In this document: positions 23,785 through 33,892 of the stretch, piece by piece
Numbering within the stretch: position 1 is the stretch's first letter
Layout: each line of letters begins with the position of its first letter
DNA from: Phenylobacterium sp.
GTDB lineage: Bacteria > Pseudomonadota > Alphaproteobacteria > Caulobacterales > Caulobacteraceae
Length of the DNA stretch: 64,000 bases
Direction of reading: 5' to 3'
Assembly: GCF_004299445.1 (NCBI RefSeq)
Contig: NZ_SCTC01000069.1
Span: 62,001 to 126,000, forward strand
Translations under genes and position numbers: made by a program
Notes under the pieces: model-generated
What the model saw: the letters and a program-made list of their open reading frames with translations, nothing else
Told to the model about the DNA's origin: nothing
Database searches by the model: none

Positions 23785-24921
23785 CTAGACCTTGCGCACG
23801 TAGCGGTGGGGGACGAAGGGGCTGGCGACGACTTCGGCGGACTGGGGTTTGCCGCGGACGATGACTTTCAGCTTGGTGCCGACCGCCTTGAAGGCCGGGG
23901 GCACGAAGGCGAGCGCGATGCCGGCCTTGAGGCAGGGGGAGTGGCCGCCCGAGGTGACCACGCCGACCACGTTTCCGGCCTCGTCGGCGACTTCGGCGCC
24001 CTCGCGGGCCGGGGCGCCTTCCAGCACGCGCAGGCAGACCTTGGCGCGGGTGGTCCCCTCGGCCAGTTCCTTGACGATGCGCGCCGCGCCCGGGAAGTCG
24101 CGCTGTTCGCGGCGGTTCTTGTTGATGGCGAAGGTGAGCCCTGCCTCGACCGGGCTGACGGTCTCGTCCAGGTCGTGGCCGTAGAGCGGCAGGCCCGCCT
24201 CCAGGCGCAGGCTGTCGCGGGCGCCCAGGCCGATCGGCTTCACGCGCTCATCGCTGAGCAGCAGGTTCCAGACGCGGACCGCCTCGGACGCCGGGACCGA
24301 GATCTCGTAGCCGTCCTCGCCGGTATAGCCCGAGCGCGAGATGATGAGGTCGGTCCCGAAGCCTGGCATGGCGCGGATGTCCATGAACACCATGTCGGCG
24401 GTCGCGGGCACATGGGCCTGGACGACGGCGGCCGCCTCGGGGCCCTGGATCGCCATCAGGGCGCGGTCTTCCAGGCGCTCGATCTCGACCTGGCCGGCCA
24501 GCTCGTCGTCGATGACCTTGAAGTCGTTGTCCTTGCAGGCGCCGTTGACGACGACGAACAGGCCGTCGGTGACGGCGCCGTCGGGGCCGGTCGGGCGGCC
24601 GGCCATCAGGTCGTCGATGATGCCGCCCTTCTTGTTCAGGAGGACGGAATACTTCTGCTTGCCGGGCTTCAGGCCGATGTAGTCGCCGGGGACCACCTCC
24701 TCGAAGGCCGACAGCGGCGAGACGCCCTTCAGGCGCGCCTGGCCCATGTGGCTGACGTCGAACAGGCCGGCGTGCTCGCGCGTCCACAGATGCTCGGCCA
24801 TCACGCCCATCGGGTACTGGACGGGCATGGTGTAGCCGGCGAACGGCACCATGCGGGCGCCCAGCGCGATGTGCGCGTCGGTGAGGGGCGTGGTCTTCAG
24901 GGCGGTATCGGAAGTGGACAA
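23785..24921 (-). CDS. gcvT: Aminomethyltransferase (glycine cleavage T protein)
   Basis: The 378-residue T protein contains FAGYTMPVQYP, LFDVSHMGQ and SRSGYTGEDGYE, standard GcvT landmarks. It transfers the one-carbon unit from aminomethyl-lipoyl-GcvH to tetrahydrofolate, releasing ammonia. The full-length N-terminus requires a TTG start codon at 24921, behind a CCGAGG motif, and no ATG upstream fits. It is the first gene of the gcv operon, 59 nt downstream of the second aptamer of a tandem glycine riboswitch. A weak TTG start may suit riboswitch-controlled translation. Confidence 0.95.
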   Translation of the reverse strand: MSTSDTALKTTPLTDAHIALGARMVPFAGYTMPVQYPMGVMAEHLWTREHAGLFDVSHMGQARLKGVSPLSAFEEVVPGDYIGLKPGKQKYSVLLNKKGGIIDDLMAGRPTGPDGAVTDGLFVVVNGACKDNDFKVIDDELAGQVEIERLEDRALMAIQGPEAAAVVQAHVPATADMVFMDIRAMPGFGTDLIISRSGYTGEDGYEISVPASEAVRVWNLLLSDERVKPIGLGARDSLRLEAGLPLYGHDLDETVSPVEAGLTFAINKNRREQRDFPGAARIVKELAEGTTRAKVCLRVLEGAPAREGAEVADEAGNVVGVVTSGGHSPCLKAGIALAFVPPAFKAVGTKLKVIVRGKPQSAEVVASPFVPHRYVRKV

Positions 24922-24980: not shown

Positions 24981-25199
24981 CCCCCGCTGTCCTTTGGGCC
25001 TGAGAGATTTCGGACGCGCCGTTGGTTGGCGGCGTCCCCTGCTCCTTCGGCGCCCCGCTAGGCCGTGCGGCGTCGCGAGAACTTTCCAGCGTTCATCAGC
25101 CCGTCGCGGTCCTTTTGCCTGAGCGTTTCCGGGGCGGTTGCGCCTTCGGCTCCCTGCGAAGTTCCGTCAGGAACGAAGCAGGGTCTCTCCCGCGAGAGT
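24981..25199 (-). promoter_or_regulatory. Tandem glycine riboswitch
   Basis: Read on the minus strand, the first aptamer (about 25199-25100) contains GGGAGAGACC, GCCGAAGGCGCAACC and GCTCAGGCAAAAGGACCG. The second aptamer (about 25087-24981) contains GCTGGAAAG, CGCCGAAGGAGCAG and TCTCAGGCCCAAAGGACAG. These are the two conserved glycine-aptamer cores in tandem. The RNA lies directly upstream of gcvT, where glycine binding normally turns on the cleavage operon. The 59-nt stretch to gcvT would contain the expression platform; GGACATCCGTCC (24955-24966) is an obvious hairpin there. Confidence 0.95.
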
Positions 25200-25302
25200 T
25201 GGGGGGGTTGTGCGGGAGGGGGGGTGGGGAGTCAACGGGGGAGGTGGAGGGTGGGGACTGAGCGAGTTCGAAACATGGCGCTGTTCCCGTCCTCTTGCTG
25301 GG

Positions 25303-25797
25303 TCAACGCCTAGCCTGCGCCGTCGCCTCATCGCTGCTCTGTTGAATCGTCGGACCTCGCGCAGCGAAGCCCTTGGTGACTGTAGAAGTGCCTATCCAGA
25401 AGAAGGCCACACTGCCTATGAGGCAGAAAGCGGCGGCGAGAGCTTCGACCCGGCCTTTCCGGGAAGGTGGCTCTCCGCGTTCGGCGCTCGCTAGGCCATA
25501 GGTCCCCGAAGTATTGAATCCGAACCAGAGAGCTATCGATGCCAGGATGGCGCAGAGTAGGCCAATGCAATAAAATCTGAGGCCAGATATAAGAAGAGGC
25601 AGCGAGAGGGATACTAGGCTCCCCTCCTTCAACGCTCCAACAAGAGTCAGTAGGGCCACAACGGCTCCCCCGTTAATGAGAACGAGAGATTTCAGCGCAT
25701 CGAGCGCATGGCCTTGCGCGAACAAGTGCTTCTGATGCGCGAGCGCGCGCGCTTGTTCTATCCCTTCGCTTGTTCGCGTTTTGTCTTCACTGGACAT
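25303..25797 (-). CDS. Small membrane protein of unknown function
   Basis: The 164-residue protein (ATG 25797, after an AAAGAGGA ribosome-binding site) has a polar helical N-terminus of about 35 residues. Three predicted membrane segments follow: SLVLINGGAVVALLTLVGAL, FYCIGLLCAILASIALWFGF and a third around AAFCLIGSVAFFWIGTS. I do not recognise a named family. Similar small membrane proteins occur in accessory regions. It is separated from the two-gene unit upstream by 188 nt that include a hairpin. It lies in the AT-rich island ahead of the gcv riboswitch. A membrane effector role is speculation. Confidence 0.7.
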   Translation of the reverse strand: MSSEDKTRTSEGIEQARALAHQKHLFAQGHALDALKSLVLINGGAVVALLTLVGALKEGSLVSLSLPLLISGLRFYCIGLLCAILASIALWFGFNTSGTYGLASAERGEPPSRKGRVEALAAAFCLIGSVAFFWIGTSTVTKGFAARGPTIQQSSDEATAQARR

Positions 25798-25945
25798 TGA
25801 CGGTCCTCTTTGAGCACGCAGGGCAAGGTTGTTGGGCACGATACACAACGTGCATTCTGTCTGCAGCGCGGTGGAAGCGGCCTTCCGCGAGCGGGTATTC
25901 CTCGCGATCTGTGCGCGAAGATTCAGGGGTACTAGGGCTCCTACA

Positions 25946-25966
25946 CCCCGCGCCGTCGGCGCGGGG
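25946..25966 (-). terminator. Hairpin after the AT-rich two-gene unit
   Basis: CCCCGCGCC (25946-25954) and GGCGCGGGG (25958-25966) form a perfect 9-bp stem with a 3-nt loop, 20 nt beyond the stop codon at 25986. It lies before the next minus-strand gene, so it probably ends transcription of the SLOG-like/winged-helix pair. Confidence 0.6.
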
Positions 25967-25985
25967 CGCACCCTGGGCGGCAAGG

Positions 25986-27158
25986 CTATTGGTCTTTGGA
26001 GTCGCTATGCAAATCCGCAAGCTTTTCAAGGTCCGAGAGCGCCGCAAGCATTTCGGTCCGCGTGGCCACGGACAGCGGCCGGTCTGCCAAACGATCCTTC
26101 AGCCGCTTTAGCTCCCCGATAACATCGTGCTCCACGGTGGCAGAGTCGTCAGAAAGCAAACTGCGCATGGCGTAGCGTGATCGGCTTATCGCAAGCTCGT
26201 CATCTATCCCCGCCGCCGATGTAGCTTTGCGGTCCACGATTAGCGCGATCGCGTTTGCGATATCCGCTACGCGAAGCGAACGGCTGATATCAGGCCACAG
26301 AGTCAATATCTTGCGGAACAGTCCGAAGAGCGTAGCCGACCCGGGGATAACCGTATTTACTACACCTTCGACTAGCCGTTCGGCCGCCCCAGCGCTAGAT
26401 TTGACGCAAACCTCCAGGAGATGGTCACGACTTACCGTCGTCGTGTAATTCAAGACGCGTAAAGCGCTCAGATGGAGCTCGACGCTAGCTGACGCGTGGA
26501 CAGCTTCCTCCCTCGCACATGAAGCAACTAAAAGAGCGTCGCTACGATCCCAGAGTTCAGCGGCGCTACGCCACAACGTGAAGTCTGCACTGAACTCGCT
26601 GCGGCGCGCTCCGGCGTGCACCACTAAGGTATTCAAATCGCTATCTGACAGCTTTGTATTTTTGAGAAGCAGGCGGGCCTTTGAGTCCGGATGTATCGCA
26701 CTGGACCAGACGAGCATCACTCGATCTTGTTCCGACATATGCGGAACGCGATCCAGATAGGTCCTTACATTCTTGAAAGATGCGGTTGTCCATCGAGCGT
26801 AAATGGGTTCTAAACTATGACAGAATTGCATAAGTTCATTTACATGCTCGAATTCTTTATTCGAAGCGATTTGGCCAAGTACCGTTGGGCCTACTACTTT
26901 GTCTGCCCCAAATTCACAGATTAACAACTCGCCCAGCGCGGTAAGTCCGAAATTCCCTGCGTGATCGACAAATATGAGGTTCGACTGAAATAGAGATCTA
27001 ACCGCTTTCTTAACGCTAAATCGCTCCGCCTTAGTGGTCTCGATCAACTTTGATTCTGAAACGACGTCATCCAAATATATGTGATGCATTATTTCGAATG
27101 AAAGCGGATCTCCGGCAAGTTTCATTCTGTATCGATTGAGCGCGCCAACCGTATCCAT
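25986..27158 (-). CDS. Unrecognised protein with winged-helix-like N-terminus
   Basis: The 390-residue protein starts at ATG 27158 (a GTG at 27161 is the alternative) and overlaps the upstream stop (TGATG). Residues about 35-90 (SESKLIETTKAERFSVKKAVRSL ... LIFVDHAGNFGLTALGELL) look like a winged helix-turn-helix with a beta wing. The rest is mostly helical, with an amphipathic or hydrophobic patch near VNTVIPGSATLFGLF, and a coiled C-terminus. No named domain was recognised. Base composition is markedly lower in GC than neighbours: 22 of 60 bases at 26821-26880 are G or C. Coupling to the SLOG-like gene suggests a joint function. Confidence 0.6.
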   Translation of the reverse strand: MDTVGALNRYRMKLAGDPLSFEIMHHIYLDDVVSESKLIETTKAERFSVKKAVRSLFQSNLIFVDHAGNFGLTALGELLICEFGADKVVGPTVLGQIASNKEFEHVNELMQFCHSLEPIYARWTTASFKNVRTYLDRVPHMSEQDRVMLVWSSAIHPDSKARLLLKNTKLSDSDLNTLVVHAGARRSEFSADFTLWRSAAELWDRSDALLVASCAREEAVHASASVELHLSALRVLNYTTTVSRDHLLEVCVKSSAGAAERLVEGVVNTVIPGSATLFGLFRKILTLWPDISRSLRVADIANAIALIVDRKATSAAGIDDELAISRSRYAMRSLLSDDSATVEHDVIGELKRLKDRLADRPLSVATRTEMLAALSDLEKLADLHSDSKDQ

Positions 27159-27691
27159 CACCTTCTCCCGGATACATAGAGAAGTTCTTGCAATCTCGCG
27201 ACTTGATCGAGCGCATAATCAATAATGCAGTTCGGAAGATCGGATCTGTTATAAGTCTGTATCTTGCAAGATGCATTAGTTTGCGCGGCAACTAGAGATT
27301 GGGTAGAGTATCCGTCATCGAAGGCGTCGTCTACAAACCCAATCAACTTATGGGATATTCCTGGAATTCTCGCGAAATCATGAATTTCGGCGATAGCTCC
27401 GTAAGAACCTGGAATTGAGAATATCACATCGAAGGCCTCAGCTTGTGCAATCTGCTGCGCGAACAAGCTCCGATCCGAAGTGGCATCGTAAAGGTCCTCG
27501 CTAAACTCCGCATAGTGGCCGCGACCGCGCAACGCATCCCGCAACCCGAGCCTTGTTTGCGCAATTGGGTCTGTACCGCTTGGATTTGGTCCCCAGACCA
27601 GTGCCGCGATAGGTACCTCACTAATTCGTGCGAGCGCGTCTAAACGCTGCTTCTCTATCTGGGCTCGAAAGCTTGCGAGATCGATCGGCAT
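27158..27691 (-). CDS. SLOG/LOG-like nucleotide-binding protein
   Basis: The 177-residue Rossmann-like protein begins MPIDLASFRAQIEKQR. A first strand and loop (AALVWGPNPSG) is followed by GHYAEFSED and then FDVIFSIPGSYGAIAEIHDF. The P94-G-S-Y-G-A-I-A-E102 string resembles the PGGxGTxxE motif of LOG/YgdD-type phosphoribohydrolases and the glutamate region of nucleoside deoxyribosyltransferases. That suggests binding or hydrolysis of a nucleotide or NAD-like ligand. G-to-S and T-to-A changes mean activity is uncertain. It is first in a two-gene AT-rich unit. SLOG proteins are known sensors or effectors in bacterial conflict systems. Confidence 0.55.
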   Translation of the reverse strand: MPIDLASFRAQIEKQRLDALARISEVPIAALVWGPNPSGTDPIAQTRLGLRDALRGRGHYAEFSEDLYDATSDRSLFAQQIAQAEAFDVIFSIPGSYGAIAEIHDFARIPGISHKLIGFVDDAFDDGYSTQSLVAAQTNASCKIQTYNRSDLPNCIIDYALDQVARLQELLYVSGRR

Positions 27692-27739
27692 CAGCGGGCT
27701 GCGGTGCAGGCGCAGGCGCTGCCGTCTTGAGTGCGGCAC

Positions 27740-28003
27740 ATGAAGCTAAATGTCACGGAGCCCCCGGAAAGCGGCATGGTAGAAGGCTAGATTTGCCTCT
27801 TGAGCGCGTAGCTGGCAAGGCCGCAACCTCAGAACGACGCTATGAGGAAGACGGTGACAGGAGCACCCATCCCCGATCCCAGCGGCCTCTTCGAGCCTTA
27901 AGTCCATCGCGGCCAGTTTGCCTTGGGGCTGAGCCGTCTCAAGGACGGCCCGCAGGGCCGCCGCGGGGCGGGCGCGCGGCGCGCGCTCCTTGACACGGCT
28001 CAG
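27740..28003. other. Intergenic region with nested repeats
   Basis: No convincing gene is seen here. The interval carries GGTGACAGGAGCACC at about 27853, which recurs near 29140 upstream of the host-attachment-like gene. It also carries the left arm of a long inverted repeat. A segment at 27896-27935 (CCTTAAGTCCAT ... CCTTGGGGCTGAG) is an imperfect reverse complement of 28001-28035. Confidence 0.6.
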
Positions 28004-28011
28004 CCCCAAGG
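27921..28011. repeat. Long inverted repeat
   Basis: A 25-nt arm (27921-27945, beginning CCTTGGGGCTGAGCCGT) pairs with 27987-28011 with a single C-C mismatch around a very GC-rich 41-nt loop. The right arm runs into the 63-nt direct repeat starting at 28004, so the elements are nested. Confidence 0.85.
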
Positions 28012-28066
28012 CTCGCATTCGACCATGGATTTAAGGGCGGGTGGCATCCCTGGGGGATGCCGGCGC
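28004..28066. repeat. 63-nt direct repeat, copy 1
   Basis: The stretch begins CCCCAAGGCTCGCATTCGAC and ends GATGCCGGCGC. It matches 28641-28703 at 62 of 63 positions; A at 28045 is G in the other copy. It lies just upstream of the gene at 28080-28640. Confidence 0.9.
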
Positions 28067-28079
28067 CTGTGGGGTCGGA

Positions 28080-28640
28080 ATGCATCGGCGGTTCATCGGC
28101 AGGGGGCTCATTTCGGCCATCGCGGTGGCCGCCTCGGCTTGTTCGGTCGAGCAGCCGGCCAGCAGCCAACAGATTGCGGCGATCGAGGTCTCGCTTCGCA
28201 CACCGGCCGATCGCGCCGACCTCCTCGCCATGCTGCATCGTCACGCGCGGGCGGGCGGTCTCCACGTGGATGACGTGAGCGAGCGGTGGCGCAGGTTAGA
28301 CACCAGCGACCACCCTCCGGCGGCGAGGGATGTGCTCACGAAGACCATCTATGTCGGCCTCTGGCGCGGCGTCGAAGACGACGACATGGAAGTGATGGTG
28401 GATGACGGCGGCCATCAGGGCCGACCCTGGCTGACGTTCCGGAGAGGCAAGCATCCTGAACTCGCGTCCAGAGTCCGGGTGGGCCTCCTGGCCGACATCA
28501 AACGTCGATGGCCGGATGCGCGGGATGTGCCGGTCATGCCGAACGGGGCCTTGCCCCTGGCAAACGACCTCGTCTGGACGGGCGGGGGCTACGCTGTGAA
28601 GGCTGAGCGCGTCGCGGGCTACGCGCGACGCGGGGACTGA
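28080..28640 (+). CDS. Predicted secreted/lipoprotein of unknown function
   Basis: The 186-residue protein begins MHRRFIGRGLISAIAVAASAC, a signal peptide ending in a plausible lipobox (ASAC), followed by a Gln/Ser-rich linker. The mature part has alternating charged helices and ends with GYAVKAERVAGYARR. No family was recognised. The gene is exactly bracketed by a 63-nt direct repeat: copy 1 ends 13 nt before the ATG and copy 2 starts directly after the TGA. A longer upstream reading from 28041 would lie inside the repeat and is not preferred. Confidence 0.6.
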   Translation: MHRRFIGRGLISAIAVAASACSVEQPASSQQIAAIEVSLRTPADRADLLAMLHRHARAGGLHVDDVSERWRRLDTSDHPPAARDVLTKTIYVGLWRGVEDDDMEVMVDDGGHQGRPWLTFRRGKHPELASRVRVGLLADIKRRWPDARDVPVMPNGALPLANDLVWTGGGYAVKAERVAGYARRGD

Positions 28641-28703
28641 CCCCAAGGCTCGCATTCGACCATGGATTTAAGGGCGGGTGGCGTCCCTGGGGGATGCCGG
28701 CGC
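28641..28703. repeat. 63-nt direct repeat, copy 2
   Basis: The second copy begins at the base after the TGA of the 28080 gene and matches 28004-28066 except for one base. The conserved ATGGATTTAAGGGCGGGTGG core is unusual in this GC-rich sequence. Nothing else resembling a transposase or recombinase gene is near. Confidence 0.9.
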
Positions 28704-28765
28704 GTGGCGCCTGATGGGTGGCGGGCGGGCTCCGTCGCCGAAGCGCTGGTGGAGGGTAGGGCGTC

Positions 28766-29095
28766 GTGGAACTTCGGACAGACAGCGGCCAGCTGAAGGC
28801 GGGCGGGGCGTTCAAGCTGATCGCCACGGGCTACCTCCTGGGCGCTGGGGTGATCTTCATTCCAGCGTTTGTTGTCATGGGCCTTGTCGCCACGTTGGCC
28901 GGCGCGCCGATCGTCGTGAACGGCCAGGTTGTGGAGGGCGGCTTCGCCACGGTCGCCGGCCTGGCGCCGCTCTTTCTGCTGCCGGTCATCCTGGCGGGGC
29001 AGGCCATGGTCCTCAGCGGCATCATCGTGCTGGGCCTGTGGCTCTATACGCGCTGGCGGCCCATTCGAGTCACGGCGGGTGACGCGTCCGCGTAG
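28766..29095 (+). CDS. Small two-helix membrane protein
   Basis: The 109-residue protein has GTG at 28766. Two hydrophobic segments (FKLIATGYLLGAGVIFIPAFVVMGLVATLAG and ATVAGLAPLFLLPVILAGQAMVLSGIIVLGLWLY) are separated by PIVVNGQVVEGG. The family is unknown. It follows the repeat-flanked lipoprotein gene in the same direction, but 125 nt of repeat DNA separates them. Confidence 0.6.
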   Translation: MELRTDSGQLKAGGAFKLIATGYLLGAGVIFIPAFVVMGLVATLAGAPIVVNGQVVEGGFATVAGLAPLFLLPVILAGQAMVLSGIIVLGLWLYTRWRPIRVTAGDASA

Positions 29096-29179
29096 GGACG
29101 AAGGGGGCGGCCGCCCGCCGTGGATGAGGCCAGAGATAGGGTGACAGGAGCACCATTCCCCCGCCAGCGCCGACCGGTC

Positions 29180-29584
29180 TCAGATCCCCTTCAGGGCCCG
29201 CAGCACCGCCTGGTCGCCACGTCCGGCGAGGTCGAGCGGCAGCTCGCCGATCAGCGCCGAGCTCAGCGCCTTGTTATAGTGGAGCCGCATCTCGCCCAAC
29301 GTCCGCGGGGCGGCGATCACCACCAGCCGCGCGATCCGGCCCCCCAGCACCTCATGATTGAGCCAGCCGGTCACGGCGGCGGCGTGGGCGTCCTCGTCCA
29401 GCAGGTGGCCCGTCGGATTGCCCGAACTGGTGTAGTGCCGCGCGCCGGCGGACTTGTCGTCCTCGCGCAGGTGGGGCGTCGGCAGCGCCGCCAGCGCGGG
29501 CTCGGTCCCGCTACCCTGGTTGCGGTAGAGCTCGAACTTCGCGCCATCGACCACCGCGATGACGTCACCATGCGACAGGATCAT
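29180..29584 (-). CDS. Host attachment protein family (baeRF-like)
   Basis: The 134-residue protein begins MILSHGDVIAVVDGAKFELYRNQG and contains RLVVIAAPRTLGEMRLHYNK. This matches the small 'protein required for attachment to host cells' family, a bacterial relative of the eRF1-like fold. The biochemical role is not established. The ATG at 29584 faces the divergent membrane protein across a 319-bp region holding two FixK/FNR-like boxes. One box sits 70 bp upstream of this start, suggesting low-oxygen control. Confidence 0.8.
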   Translation of the reverse strand: MILSHGDVIAVVDGAKFELYRNQGSGTEPALAALPTPHLREDDKSAGARHYTSSGNPTGHLLDEDAHAAAVTGWLNHEVLGGRIARLVVIAAPRTLGEMRLHYNKALSSALIGELPLDLAGRGDQAVLRALKGI

Positions 29585-29653
29585 TCCCACTCCTTGCGCG
29601 CCACCTCGCGGCGCGTCTCCGGAGGGTTGTGGCGCAAGGACGCGCCGGGCGGC

Positions 29654-29667
29654 TTGATCTGGCTCAA
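29654..29667. promoter_or_regulatory. FixK/FNR-type box (TTGATCTGGCTCAA)
   Basis: The sequence matches the FixK/FNR core TTGA-N6-TCAA exactly, and the extended TTGAT-N4-ATCAA consensus at nine of ten positions. It lies 70 bp upstream of the host-attachment-like gene start on the minus strand, a typical distance for activation. Confidence 0.65.
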
Positions 29668-29782
29668 GGGGTCGGCTCACCCAAGCCGCGACTGAAGGAG
29701 GCGCGGGCGCACGATACCTATCTCCTGGGTTCGTAGCGCACCGGCCGCTCCCCCACCGGAGGTGAGGCGCGGCGGATGTGGA

Positions 29783-29796
29783 TTGATCCGGGTCAA
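29783..29796. promoter_or_regulatory. FixK/FNR-type box (TTGATCCGGGTCAA)
   Basis: A second perfect TTGA-N6-TCAA lies 115 bp from the first. It is 60-107 bp upstream of the plus-strand membrane-protein gene, depending on which start is used. Two boxes in one divergent intergenic region suggest one for each gene. Confidence 0.65.
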
Positions 29797-29903
29797 GGCC
29801 GGCGCGGCGAGCCTGTCGGACGCTCGCGTCTCGAACCCTGGACGCGAGCACGCCGCTGACCCCCACATCTCGCACCATCGCACGGATCGTTGGGCCGTCG
29901 GCG

Positions 29904-30221
29904 GTGGTGCTGGCGGCGACGGAGGCGTTCAACATGCCGATCTTCGCCGCGCAGACGGCGCCCGTGGTCTATCTGAACGGGACGCTGCTGTTCGTGGCGG
30001 GCGTGGCCATCGTGCAGGCGCACAACCGGTGGCGCTGGGGCTGGCCGTTGCTGGTGACGCTGAGCGGGTGGGGGATCCTGGCGGTGGGGCTGGTGCGGAT
30101 GATCGCGCCTAGCGCGCCGCAGGCGAGCGCGGGGCCGGTCACGGACGTGGTGTTTGTCGCGCTGGTGGCGCTGGGGGTGGGGCTTTCGGTGCTGGGGTAT
30201 CGGCGGGGCGGGGGCGCGTGA
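29904..30221 (+). CDS. Small membrane protein, possibly hypoxia-regulated
   Basis: At least 105 residues with three hydrophobic segments (APVVYLNGTLLFVAGVAIV, WGWPLLVTLSGWGILAVGLV, VVFVALVALGVGLSVLGY). GTG at 29904 is the first conventional start. The in-frame reading upstream to 29856 (TPTSRTIARIVGPSAVVLAATEAFN) looks like coding sequence of the same protein, so translation may begin further upstream at a rare CTG, or an ATG has been lost. A FixK/FNR-like box lies upstream. Function unknown. Confidence 0.55.
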   Translation: MVLAATEAFNMPIFAAQTAPVVYLNGTLLFVAGVAIVQAHNRWRWGWPLLVTLSGWGILAVGLVRMIAPSAPQASAGPVTDVVFVALVALGVGLSVLGYRRGGGA

Positions 30222-30257
30222 GGGGGCTCGTCCTGCCGGCGCGGCGCTCCGGGCGTG

Positions 30258-30313
30258 ACTTCCCCACCCTGGCGGCTCACGCCGCCTGTCCCTCCCCACA
30301 AGGGGGAGGGAAG
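30258..30313. repeat. Dispersed palindrome family B, copy 1
   Basis: The element reads ACTTCCCCACCCT, then a short GC hairpin (GGCGGCTCACGCCGCC), then GTCCCTCCCC and GGGGGAGGGAA. The same architecture recurs at 31689-31743 with a different inner hairpin. It lies 37 nt after the membrane-protein stop, so it could act as a terminator. Confidence 0.75.
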
Positions 30314-30364
30314 GGGGTGCAACCTCTGCCGTCGGGTGGCGTTTTGCGGCTGGAGGCTCGACAC

Positions 30365-30478
30365 ATGACCGCAATCACGAACGTCGCCCGGGCCGCGCGG
30401 CTCCTGTCGCTGGTGCTCTTCGACATCGTGCGGCCGAGCCGGCCGGAGTATCGGCTGCCGGCGCGTTGGTTGGGGTGA
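30365..30478 (+). CDS. Possible 37-residue peptide
   Basis: An ATG 8 nt after a good GGAGG ribosome-binding site opens a short ORF MTAITNVARAARLLSLVLFD and so on, amphipathic and basic, ending ARWLG. It lies between two repeat families. It may be a genuine small protein or chance; codon usage is compatible with coding but the length is too short to judge. Confidence 0.3.
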   Translation: MTAITNVARAARLLSLVLFDIVRPSRPEYRLPARWLG

Positions 30479-30490
30479 AGGGCTTGCCTC

Positions 30491-30688
30491 ACCTCCCCCG
30501 CGAAGCGGCGGGAGGGGGACCGGCCGCCGAGCCCGGCCTTGGGCCGGGCGTAGAGCGGTTGGTGGAGGGGGCGGGCTTCAGGCTCTGCGGGATGATCTAG
30601 CTGATTTTGGCGCTGTGGGTGGGGCTCGCCCCCTCCACCACCCGCTCTTCGGCGGGTGGTCCCCCTCCCGCCGCCTTGCGGGGGAGGT
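30491..30688. repeat. Dispersed palindrome family A, copy 1
   Basis: Arm 30491-30521 (ACCTCCCCCGCGAAGCGGCG and on) is complementary, with few mismatches, to 30658-30688. Between them inner arms containing GGTGGAGGGGGCG and CGCCCCCTCCACC face each other. The rest of the 620-bp gap before the terminase-like gene holds this element, family B copy 1 and the small ORF, and nothing else recognised. Confidence 0.85.
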
Positions 30689-30841
30689 AAGACGCGTCAC
30701 CGTTGTGTTCGTCTTTCGTTCTTGCATTTTGCGCGCGAATTCGGTAGGGTTCTGTCAGGGTTGATCCGTGCGCCAGGGGTTTCTGGCCCGCGCGGGGTCC
30801 GCCTTTTCCCCTCCCCACTCCTGACATTGCGAGAGAGACCG

Positions 30842-31645
30842 ATGGCTGATGATGGCATCGAGGGCGGCGTCGCGCGTGGGCGGCGGCGGTCGCGGACGCC
30901 TGTGCGGTATTCGAAGGCGCTGGAGGCGCGGCTGCTGGCGCGGCTGGCCGCGGGCGAGCTGTTGTACCGGATCGCGCAGGAGGCCGACATGCCGACGCCC
31001 GAGGCGGTGGCGAAGTGGGCGAGGGCGCGGCCGGGGTTCCGCGAGGCGCTGCTGAAGGCGCGGCGGGACGGGGGGCGGCCGGCGGGGACGAAGGGCCAGC
31101 CGTGCGGGCTGTGCGAGCCCGTGGCGGACGAGATCTTCGAGCGGCTGTGCGAGGGCGAGAGCCTGACGTCGATCGGGCGCGACCCGACGATGCCCAGCCT
31201 GTCGACCATCTTCCGGTGGCGGCGGGACTTCCCCGACTTCGACGCCGAGATGCGGGTGGGGATGCGGATCCGGGCCGAGGTGCTGGCCGACGGCGGCGAT
31301 GACCTGGCGGCGGAGGCGACGCCGGAGACGGCGTTCCTGACCCAGGTGCGGCTGACCCACCTGCGCTGGCGGGTGGGGACGCTGGCGCCGTGGGAGTACC
31401 GCACGCGGCTGGTGGAGCCGCCGGCGGCGGCGCAGGGCAAGCCGGCCAAGCGGCTGCTGCTGCGGAAGTTCGAGGTGGAGGTGGATCCGGCGACGGGCCG
31501 GAAGGTGGTGGTGGCCTATTGCCCGAACCCCGACACGGGCGAGGTGGAGCGCGAGGACACGCCGGGCTGGCGCCAGGCGCCGAACAGCGCGGCGCTGCCC
31601 GGGGGGCGGCCGGGGTGGGACGAGTGGCCGGGGTCGGGGCGCTGA
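30842..31645 (+). CDS. Terminase small subunit-like DNA-binding protein (orphan)
   Basis: The 267-residue protein has two helix-turn-helix-like repeats. The first is at about 25-75 (LARLAAGELLYRIAQEADMPTPEAVAKW). The second is at about 95-150 (IFERLCEGESLTSIGRDPTMPSLSTIFRW). A helical segment with LTHLRWRVGTLAPWEYRTRL follows. This matches the Sf6-like small terminase family, which recognises phage DNA for packaging. No large terminase, portal or other phage gene is nearby, so it is an orphan, perhaps a domesticated DNA-binding protein. The C-terminus (about 190-267) is proline- and glycine-rich. Repeats flank it on both sides. Confidence 0.75.
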   Translation: MADDGIEGGVARGRRRSRTPVRYSKALEARLLARLAAGELLYRIAQEADMPTPEAVAKWARARPGFREALLKARRDGGRPAGTKGQPCGLCEPVADEIFERLCEGESLTSIGRDPTMPSLSTIFRWRRDFPDFDAEMRVGMRIRAEVLADGGDDLAAEATPETAFLTQVRLTHLRWRVGTLAPWEYRTRLVEPPAAAQGKPAKRLLLRKFEVEVDPATGRKVVVAYCPNPDTGEVEREDTPGWRQAPNSAALPGGRPGWDEWPGSGR

Positions 31646-31688
31646 GGGGGCTTAGGGGCTCGTTCTGTGGGCGCTGGGCCTGGTCGTG

Positions 31689-31743
31689 ACTTCCCCACCC
31701 TGACCGCTGCGCGGTCTGTCCCTCCCCATAAAGGGGAGGGAAA
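31689..31743. repeat. Dispersed palindrome family B, copy 2
   Basis: It has the same outer sequence as 30258-30313 (ACTTCCCCACCCT ... GTCCCTCCCC ... GGGGAGGGAA), but the inner hairpin reads GACCGCTGCGCGGTC. It occupies the short gap between the convergent terminase-like and SPOR genes, which is consistent with a bidirectional terminator. Confidence 0.75.
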
Positions 31744-31746
31744 GGC

Positions 31747-32835
31747 TCAGTCTGCGTTGTCGTCGGCGGGGCGGGCGAAGCAGGACTGGCCGGCGCGGGT
31801 GAGGGCGGCGCAGGCGCGGGCGGCCTCGCCGGCGGTCTGGAAGCCGCCGAGGAGGGCGATGTAGACGGGCTGGTCGCCGACCTGGGTGGTCTGGGTGACG
31901 GCGGTGAGGCGGCGGCCGGCGGGCTCCAGCGCCTTGCGGGCGGCCTTGAGCGCGCGCTGGGCGCCGTCTTCCGAGGGGCCCTGGGCCAGCTGGACGACGA
32001 AGCCTGACGGGGCGGCGGCGAGGGGCGGCGCGGGCGGCTCGGCCCCCGGTTGCCACGGGAAGCAGTCCTGGCCGGCCTTGCGCAGGGTGTTGCAGGCGCT
32101 CTGGGCGGCGGCGAGGTCGGGGAAGCCGGCGAGGCGCGTCGTGTAGCGCGGGCCGGCGGGCATGGCGGTGATTTCGGTGGTGTCGGCCAGGTCCCGGGCC
32201 AGGGGACCCAGGGTCTTGCGCGCGGCCCTGAGCGCCCGCAGCGCGCCCTCCTGCGACGAGCCGCGGGCCAGCTGGAGGGCATAGCCCTTGGCGGCCGGCG
32301 GGGCGGCCGGCGGAGGCGCCTGTGGCGGGGGCGCGGCGGCCAGGGCGACGGGGGGCGGCGTGCGCGGCTGGCGCAGGGCCCAGACGAAGGCGGGATCGCA
32401 GGCGGCGGCCAGCAGGCGGGCGGCGGGCTGGTCGGCGGCGGGCGTGGTCCAGTCGGCGGCGGCCGGCTCGGACCGGGGCGAGCCCTTGCGGTTGCCGCGC
32501 GGGTAGGTGGCGGCGCGGATCTGGCGCAGGCGGCCGGCGGCGCAGTCGAACAGGATGTGGGCGTCCCACGACTGGAAGCCGCGGCTCGCGCCCCAGTCGG
32601 CGGCCAGCGGCTCGGCGCGGACCAGGGCGATCACCTCGCCGGCGGGGGTGCGGGCGCCCAGGGGCTCGAGGCTGTAGACGTGCTCGGGGCCGGGGATGAC
32701 CACCTGGGCGGCGGGGATGTCGGTGTTGGCGGCGAGCCAGGCGGGGAGGTCGGCGGGCGCGGTGGCCAGGGCGGGGGTGGCGGCCAGGGCGAACGCGAGG
32801 GCCACGGCTCCGGTGCGGGGGGCTGGCTTGACCAT
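31747..32835 (-). CDS. Secreted protein with two SPOR domains
   Basis: The 362-residue protein has a signal peptide (MVKPAPRTGAVALAFALAATPALA). A surface-adhesion-like beta domain (about 25-150) includes SWDAHILFDCAAGRLR, and a Pro/Ala linker follows. Two SPOR domains come next (about 185-258 and 272-352), each with a YALQLARG or FVVQLAQG strand, a YTTRLAGF or YIALLGGF strand and CFPW or CFAR ends. SPOR domains bind denuded glycan strands at division sites. Pairs of cysteines in each domain may form disulfides. It converges with the terminase-like gene. Confidence 0.8.
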   Translation of the reverse strand: MVKPAPRTGAVALAFALAATPALATAPADLPAWLAANTDIPAAQVVIPGPEHVYSLEPLGARTPAGEVIALVRAEPLAADWGASRGFQSWDAHILFDCAAGRLRQIRAATYPRGNRKGSPRSEPAAADWTTPAADQPAARLLAAACDPAFVWALRQPRTPPPVALAAAPPPQAPPPAAPPAAKGYALQLARGSSQEGALRALRAARKTLGPLARDLADTTEITAMPAGPRYTTRLAGFPDLAAAQSACNTLRKAGQDCFPWQPGAEPPAPPLAAAPSGFVVQLAQGPSEDGAQRALKAARKALEPAGRRLTAVTQTTQVGDQPVYIALLGGFQTAGEAARACAALTRAGQSCFARPADDNAD

Positions 32836-32944
32836 GGCGCCAGGGTAGCGGCGTCGTGCTTAATCCGGCCCTAACCCTGGCGCGCGACGGCCCAGCTTTC
32901 GCCGCACGGCTCGCCGATCACGGGGCGGCCAGGGGAGATATGCC

Positions 32945-33892
32945 ATGCGGAACTTGTGGGGGATCGTCGCGGCGGCGGCGCTCGTGTGGGCGGCGGGCCC
33001 GGCCAGCGCGCAGCGGCTGGAGGACCCGGAAGCCAACATCGTGGCCGAGCTGGTGGTGCAGGCCAGGGAGCCGGGGCCGGCCTGGTGGAAGGTCTCGGAC
33101 GAGGACTCCACGGTCTACATCCTGGGCGTGGGCGAGGACCGGTTGCCGCCGGGCGTGACCTGGGACCGGCGGTTCGTGGACCGGCGGCTGAAGGGCGCCA
33201 ACAGCCTGATCCTGGGCACGCGGGTGGGCCTGCGCGGCGGGTTCGGGGACATCCCGGCGCTGCTGCGGCTGCGCAAGCAGATGCGCTCGAAGACGCCGCT
33301 GGAAGCGAGCCTGCCCGAGCCGCTGCGGGCGCGGTTCGTGGCCCAGCGCACGCGGATCGGCCAGCCGGCCAGCAAGTACGCCAACTGGAAGCCGTTCCTG
33401 GCCGGGCTGCAGCTGCTGGGCGACGCGCAGGAGGGCCAGAAGGGCGCGACGGTCGTGGACACGGTGATCAAGACCGCCAAGCGCGAGAAGGCCAAGGTGG
33501 TGCAGCCGGCCAGCTACAAGGCGGTGCCGGTGCTGCAGCAGGCGATGGCGACGCTGACGCCGCAGGTGCACGAGCAGTGCCTGGACCTGGCGCTGCGCGA
33601 CGCCGAGGCGCCGGCAAGCCGGTCGCGGGCGGCGGCTCAGGCCTGGGCGCGGGGCGACGTGGCCGTCGCGCTGACCGAGCCGCGCAGCTTCGAGAAGTGC
33701 CTGCTGCTGCTGGGCGGCGGCGCCGACCTGTGGCGCCGCGTGGTGAAGGACAATGCGACCGCCATCGCGACGGCGCTGCAGAAGCCCGGCCACTCCGTGG
33801 CCATCGTCAGCCTGCGCCCGCTGCTGGCCGAGGGCGGAGTGATCCAGCAGCTGGAGGCGCGAGGGCTCGAGGTCGAGGGCGGCGGCCGGTGA
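32945..33892 (+). CDS. TraB/GumN family protein
   Basis: The 315-residue protein has a signal peptide (MRNLWGIVAAAALVWAAGPASA) and the family pattern WWKVSDEDSTVYILGVGEDRLPPG near the N-terminus. Conserved later segments include AWARGDVAVAL and a late GHSVAIVSLRPLLAEGGV. TraB/GumN proteins have an erythromycin-esterase/Tiki-like fold and are often predicted metalloproteases. Function here is unknown. It is divergent from the SPOR gene, with 109 bp between starts. Confidence 0.8.
   Translation: MRNLWGIVAAAALVWAAGPASAQRLEDPEANIVAELVVQAREPGPAWWKVSDEDSTVYILGVGEDRLPPGVTWDRRFVDRRLKGANSLILGTRVGLRGGFGDIPALLRLRKQMRSKTPLEASLPEPLRARFVAQRTRIGQPASKYANWKPFLAGLQLLGDAQEGQKGATVVDTVIKTAKREKAKVVQPASYKAVPVLQQAMATLTPQVHEQCLDLALRDAEAPASRSRAAAQAWARGDVAVALTEPRSFEKCLLLLGGGADLWRRVVKDNATAIATALQKPGHSVAIVSLRPLLAEGGVIQQLEARGLEVEGGGR

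Follow-up and report, generated by a model that had tools for sequence, protein, structure and literature searches.

The minus strand of the window, by which the whole 64-kb stretch of DNA analysed is meant, carries a small A+T-rich island of three genes, A, B and C. The first of these encodes a diverged single-domain relative of the NDT-like effector of type II-A retrons (Ec86/Eco1), an assignment that is well supported. Genes A and B overlap, and the reading preferred here, with a probability of about 0.55, is that they form an abortive-infection-like module of toxin and regulator, which would work independently of a reverse transcriptase (RT). The observed basis of this reading comprises the family of A, its catalytic glutamate, the overlap of the two genes, their foreign composition, the variable locus in which they lie and the fact that no RT was found. 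The features of the region are these:

Gene A, 27158-27691, minus strand: 177-aa single-domain NDT-like enzyme, related to the effector of type II-A retrons but diverged from it.
Gene B, 25986-27158 (27161 if the GTG start is used), minus strand: 390 aa (391 with GTG), the proposed regulator or neutraliser of A.
Gene C, 25303-25797, minus strand: membrane protein of 164 aa; three to four segments are hydrophobic.
Overlap TGATG between the stop codon of A and the start codon of B, 27156-27160, minus strand: preceded by GGGAGAAGG; presumed site of translational coupling.
G+C-rich hairpin between B and C, with no T run, 25943-25969, minus strand: no more stable than composition predicts.
Imperfect inverted repeat, 27896-28036, no strand assigned: by its distribution a dispersed repeat of the genus, which flanks the island on the upstream side of A.
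Glycine riboswitch of the gcv operon, 25097-25202, minus strand: homology with relatives stops at 25235-25256.

The island is real. The preliminary description had contrasted its base composition with that of both sides, and both counts are reproduced exactly: 22 of 60 bases are G or C at 26821-26880, compared with 43 of 60 at 24661-24720. The island is also the G+C minimum of the window. The lowest values for 2.4-kb segments of the 64 kb fall on it (0.539 at 25501), whereas none of the 1128 segments off the island falls below 0.656, their mean being 0.701. The GC3 of A, B and C is 0.49, 0.56 and 0.59, respectively, against 0.95 for gcvT, and all three reading frames are open. By composition A and B look foreign, and horizontal acquisition of the pair as a two-gene module belongs to the best explanation as a whole, being somewhat favoured on the same footing.

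The family of A was identified in several ways. Pfam gives no match. The NCBIfam model NF038232 (retron St85 effector) matches A with an E-value of 3.4e-4 and 20.4 bits, far under its cut-off of 100; the PADLOC model NDT_II-A matches at 0.004, and a sequence search of the PDB finds the Ec86 effector at 0.16. These three matches are to one and the same family. Comparison sets were assembled from retron effectors (taken from genomes and plasmid records), LOG proteins and canonical NDTs. The retron profile was built from the NDT domain of seven retron effectors, the LOG profile from 19 of 20 fetched loci (L051 was left out), and the canonical NDT profile from the seven loci above the cut-off among 13 fetched for PF05014. 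In hhalign, A scores 43.3 against the retron NDT profile (probability 90.5), and the best of 100 shuffles of A reaches 19.5. Left-out members score from 53.6 upward against the profile of their own family, and no LOG or canonical NDT member exceeds 25.1 against the retron profile. In hmmsearch with an HMM of 17 other NDT effectors, A has an E-value of 1.8e-6; the lowest value among 2000 shuffles is 0.42, and the best-placed LOG row has 7.3. Two shuffle-controlled methods and three matches to one family thus give good support to the homology of A with retron NDT effectors, as judged from sequence.

The preliminary description had placed A among SLOG/LOG-like proteins because of the string PGSYGAIAE. 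The string is present, and its P-G-S-Y-G..x-E pattern does resemble PGGxGTxxE, but it is not borne out as a LOG motif: the score of A against the LOG profile, 20.6, lies within the range of its shuffles (best of 100, 22.9), while the retron NDT score is far outside its own. The N-terminal half of A is also devoid of the GGG..GLMG stretch of the LOG rows compared, and Pfam does not match A to LOG/Lysine_decarbox (PF03641). NDT-like enzymes are, we take it, part of the DrHyd superfamily. What survives of the earlier reading is a Rossmann-like nucleotide-processing domain of the same broad clade; the family is the retron NDT-like one, and within the TIR-DrHyd-SLOG clade A falls with the NDT-like (DrHyd) enzymes and not with LOG/SLOG. 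That clade takes in both SLOG and the DrHyd superfamily, and its members in immune systems are NADases or makers of ADP-ribose signals (PMC9503650). A nucleotide-signalling protein of LOG/SLOG type, which shares that broad clade, is disfavoured and extremely improbable.

An ordinary nucleoside deoxyribosyltransferase or nucleotide hydrolase of nucleotide salvage would have an NDT-type fold, and glycosidic-bond chemistry is common to such enzymes. Against the canonical NDT (PF05014) profile, however, A scores 9.8, inside the shuffle range (best of 100, 24.4), and Pfam reports no PF05014 match in A. A search with the sequence of A alone finds nothing in plasmids, phages, viral contigs or any of 99 of 99 other relatives, and the locus is variable and foreign-looking. 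A salvage role is thus very unlikely. The own genome has no match to PF05014 and none to NF038232 at an E-value of 0.001. Five weak matches of A in the phylum (17.7-21.4 bits) were rejected, having zero score against the family HMM, as was the sole genome-contig locus (L009), which falls on a permease-like gene, presumably that of a transporter. A profile of A together with the seven retron effectors has matches in seven of 398 phylum genomes, the own genome included.

The residues of A that are conserved point in the same direction. Glu102 aligns with Glu106 of the Ec86/Eco1 effector, and the title of PDB entry 8qbl, 'inactive effector (E106A, 2 segments)', names that very residue; the catalytic glutamate, as predicted from the alignment, is conserved in A. 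G34, G98, E102 and F106 do not vary in any of three alignments and form a core that A shares with the retron II-A effector (NF038232, NDT_II-A), the glutamate having the same place in both. In the retron motif ESxGSxxELG, A retains three residues (the S of ES, the G of GS and, further on, the second E) and lacks the first E, the S of GS and the LG. Of the residues that do not vary among the seven retron effectors, several are thus missing from A, whose activity may accordingly be altered or absent. Unlike the retron II-A effector, A is a single 177-aa domain without a C-terminal winged helix, and its score is far under the family cut-off. Its most likely activity, by analogy, would be cleavage of an N-glycosidic bond, perhaps in NAD+.

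A structure predicted from the single sequence was too poor for use (pLDDT 36.8). The model of A made with 11 relatives in the alignment has a pLDDT of 78.7 and a pTM of 0.73. In it, five strands alternate with helices, which suggests a five-stranded Rossmannoid core, although the retron relatives contributed to the model. The predicted five-stranded alpha/beta core is shared with the TIR-DrHyd-SLOG clade, and A would also share its glutamate-based N-glycosidic chemistry. In the structural comparison, the best three Foldseek matches in the PDB (7xjg, 8qbl and 8qbk) are all of the Ec86/Eco1 effector, with E-values of 5.7e-6 to 1.6e-4 and a modest TM to the query of 0.57-0.59. GPCR/G-protein complexes come after them, at 5.3e-4 and above. 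Because retron relatives were included in the alignment behind the model, these matches do not count as evidence separate from the sequence similarity.

The junction of the two genes reads GGGAGAAGGTGATGG, where the TGA of A overlaps the ATG of B, and GGGAGAAGG is a Shine-Dalgarno-like stretch ahead of this ATG. Of the earlier claim that TGATG couples the genes, the overlap stands and is joined by the Shine-Dalgarno-like stretch; translational coupling itself is presumed from them. A stop-free run of 391 codons occurs in none of 1000 shuffles of the A+B DNA, and a run of at least 177 codons in 28 of 1000, so that the reality of A rests on its homology and not on its length. The hairpin that had been taken to end the pair does exist at 25943-25969, but its folding is within the range of shuffled sequence (z -1.27; 23 of 200 shuffles are as good), and no minus-strand terminator is called within 25200-28100.

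Gene C is separated from B by a gap of 188 bases. It encodes a small membrane protein, as described before, with three or four hydrophobic segments in 164 aa (19-aa means of 2.32, 2.15, 2.07 and 1.59). The three genes lie on the same strand and all have a low GC3, and no gene other than C accompanies A and B on the A+T-rich stretch, so that A, B and C might be thought to make up one membrane-linked system. Such a system is most improbable: C stands behind the gap with a Shine-Dalgarno-like site of its own (AGAGGA), and it has no relative in 118-119 other genomes or in plasmids, so no association is visible.

The partner protein, B, is a 390-aa orphan in which no domain is recognised above cut-off. 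For residues 1-100 Pfam ranks two matches best, Phage_rep_O (E 0.05) and, next to it, HVO_A0261_N (E 0.057); neither reaches the cut-off, and we take both to be winged-helix families. A winged helix at residues 31-83 is possible but weakly supported; the winged-helix-like N-terminus proposed earlier thus has sub-threshold backing from Pfam and no match to the retron winged helices compared. Residues 197-306 match Pfam PH_34, a PH-like domain, with an E-value of 0.006-0.01; this match is below cut-off and was given no weight. Among 384 other genomes of the class and 100 other genomes of the genus B has weak matches only, and it has none in plasmids, phages or viral contigs, the scan of viral contigs being one that detects close relatives only. 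The match in G260 falls on a gene that appears to us to be Coq7-like. Two of the seven loci with weak matches in the genus were inspected: the frame at the match in L092, presumably acyl-CoA-synthetase-like, was rejected, and L094 has several long frames and no clear reading. B as a degenerate RT finds no support (hhalign probability 0.33-0.38% against the single RT of the split retron locus L091), and neither does a retron winged-helix protein in comparisons with the C-terminal parts of the seven retron effectors and with the separate protein of L091. The sets searched gave no second A+B pair. The recurrence of the pair or trio, for which the preliminary description proposed a survey, is not seen there, B having weak matches only and C none.

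The surroundings of A differ from those of its family. At all 26 of 26 other family loci examined (23 distinct proteins) there is an RT gene or motif. A YADD/YSDD-type motif is present in 25 of them, and in the remaining one (L025) the contig ends inside an RT-like frame. In nine of the 25 (L026, L062-L065 and L088-L091) the RT is a neighbouring frame or an annotated gene; for the other 16 (L061 and L066-L080) the evidence is the RT motif only, on the strand of the effector and inside the 4-6 kb fetched. The count leaves out L027 (G629), an 84-aa fragment matching the NDT HMM, and the plasmid matches H4, which is a second record of H5, and H8. All 26 loci were found with retron-based queries, which favours RT linkage. 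The window, on the other hand, has no YADD/YSDD-type RT motif in its 64 kb, and a search with RVT_1 of the own genome, which has 95 contigs and a completeness of 100, gives no match, while the same model matches three of 14 control genomes. Between 24000 and 30000 the glycine riboswitch is the only Rfam match at E-values up to 1 in a search for an msr-msd ncRNA. One strong structure lies near the island, and it is the dispersed repeat at 27896-28036.

Two of the family loci are of particular relevance. The first, in a genome of the same genus (G056; L090:5451-7299), is a complete type II-A pair of a 304-aa NDT effector and an RT; retrons, therefore, do reach this genus. In the second (G770; L091:4924-7240) a separate short NDT gene of 199 aa overlaps by 4 bases a 103-aa winged-helix-like gene, which is followed by a 407-aa RT. 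The 103-aa protein matches the N-terminus of the PADLOC model RT_II-A. A LuxR/GerE-type HTH is matched by the C-terminus of the 407-aa RT (E 4.1e-5, narrowly past the cut-off), and a large gene ahead of the locus is, by our reading, restriction/methyltransferase-like. L091 appears from its sequence to be a precedent for a split NDT/winged-helix architecture: A is likewise the upstream gene of an overlapping pair, and B occupies the place of the small winged-helix-like gene. In L091, however, the next gene encodes 103 aa and an RT follows, whereas B is 390 aa long and no RT comes after it. In the tree A groups with the NDT of L091 (82/77), with a long-branch warning.

The chief rival of the preferred reading is a decayed retron, in which A would be a leftover type II-A effector, RT and msr-msd would have been lost, and B would be an unrelated neighbour. 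The RT at every other family locus examined, the complete pair in the same genus and the end branch of A, the longest of the tree at 4.36, all speak for decay. Decay does not sit well with two genes that are both open and overlapping, with a Shine-Dalgarno-like stretch placed for B, nor with the retention of the catalytic glutamate by A; B, moreover, is unlike the one RT compared, and the window lacks the RT motif. We regard decay as rather unlikely and as less probable than the RT-independent module of A and B.

The locus is a variable one. The DNA upstream of gcvT was compared with the window in 12 relatives that have gcvT; among these stretches, the contigs of L129, L134 and L135 end 0.9-1.5 kb from the start of the stretch, and that of L137 after 4.1 kb. 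The riboswitch beside the island is, as described earlier, the glycine riboswitch of gcv. Homology with the window reaches 25235-25256 in 12 of 12 relatives and then ends, which marks the left border of the variable locus. In two relatives (G002, L130; G032, L131) homology resumes after 223 and 229 bases, respectively, with the gene at about 32970 of the window; the distance from the same riboswitch-side border to this gene is 7.7 kb in the window and about 0.2 kb in G002 and G032. In G012 (L132) the spacing is 4.2 kb, and within it lie a dispersed-repeat copy and a gene related to the one at 30656-31645. No part of 25257-27914 is matched in the stretches upstream of gcvT of any of the 12 relatives. 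The island is thus cargo of the variable locus. The variable locus spans 25240-32970 of the window, with the gcv riboswitch on one side and the gene at 32945 on the other. Near gcvT, DNA of the gene at 30656-31645 is present again in L132, L136 and L139.

A dispersed imperfect inverted repeat of about 140 bp is found at 27896-28036 and at 28641-28706. In the own genome the copy at 27896-28036 is matched 14 times, at 11 places that include its own. Of 59 other genomes, 12 have matches, and each of these 12 is one of the 35 that belong to the same genus. On the minus strand and with its flanks it folds much better than shuffles (z -3.8). As a candidate for a retron ncRNA it is ruled out by its distribution as a dispersed repeat.

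Retron effectors are familiar as the weapon in a device whose sensor is RT-msDNA, and the Eco1 effector is said, in the title of one reference, to hydrolyse NAD+. In PMC12887533 the Eco1 effector is described as NDT-like and filament-forming and as acting against phage. By analogy, we infer for A and B the toxicity of A, its substrate, its inhibition by B and the trigger. A would represent the lineage of the retron II-A effector, having parted from both the retron and the fused winged helix. It would cleave the N-glycosidic bond in NAD+ or a nucleotide and be toxic once active. B, made in coupled translation with A, would take the place of the RT-msDNA-winged helix part and keep A inactive, and it may regulate the operon through its N-terminus. 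Sensing of infection by B, or loss of B, would release A and bring about an abortive-infection or toxin-antitoxin-like response. The conflict module suggested in the preliminary description is plausible, since the nearest relatives of A are retron effectors. The lack of a second A+B pair in the sets searched counts against a pair that is kept together; a single example cannot establish a system.

The enzyme itself is of a known kind. An NDT effector with a protein partner and without an RT is an arrangement that was not found described in the literature searched, in which few subscription papers were covered. It is a tentative proposal, held with less confidence than the module itself, that A and B make up a retron-free immune module in which an entirely new, protein-only sensor or inhibitor, B, replaces RT-msDNA, the effector being older than the retron or having escaped from it. 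If this is true, an NDT effector with a protein-only partner would mean that sensor and effector are exchangeable, and it would bear on how msDNA came to guard toxins. A and B would then offer a small two-gene system for asking whether NDT-type effectors are NAD+ glycohydrolases in themselves.
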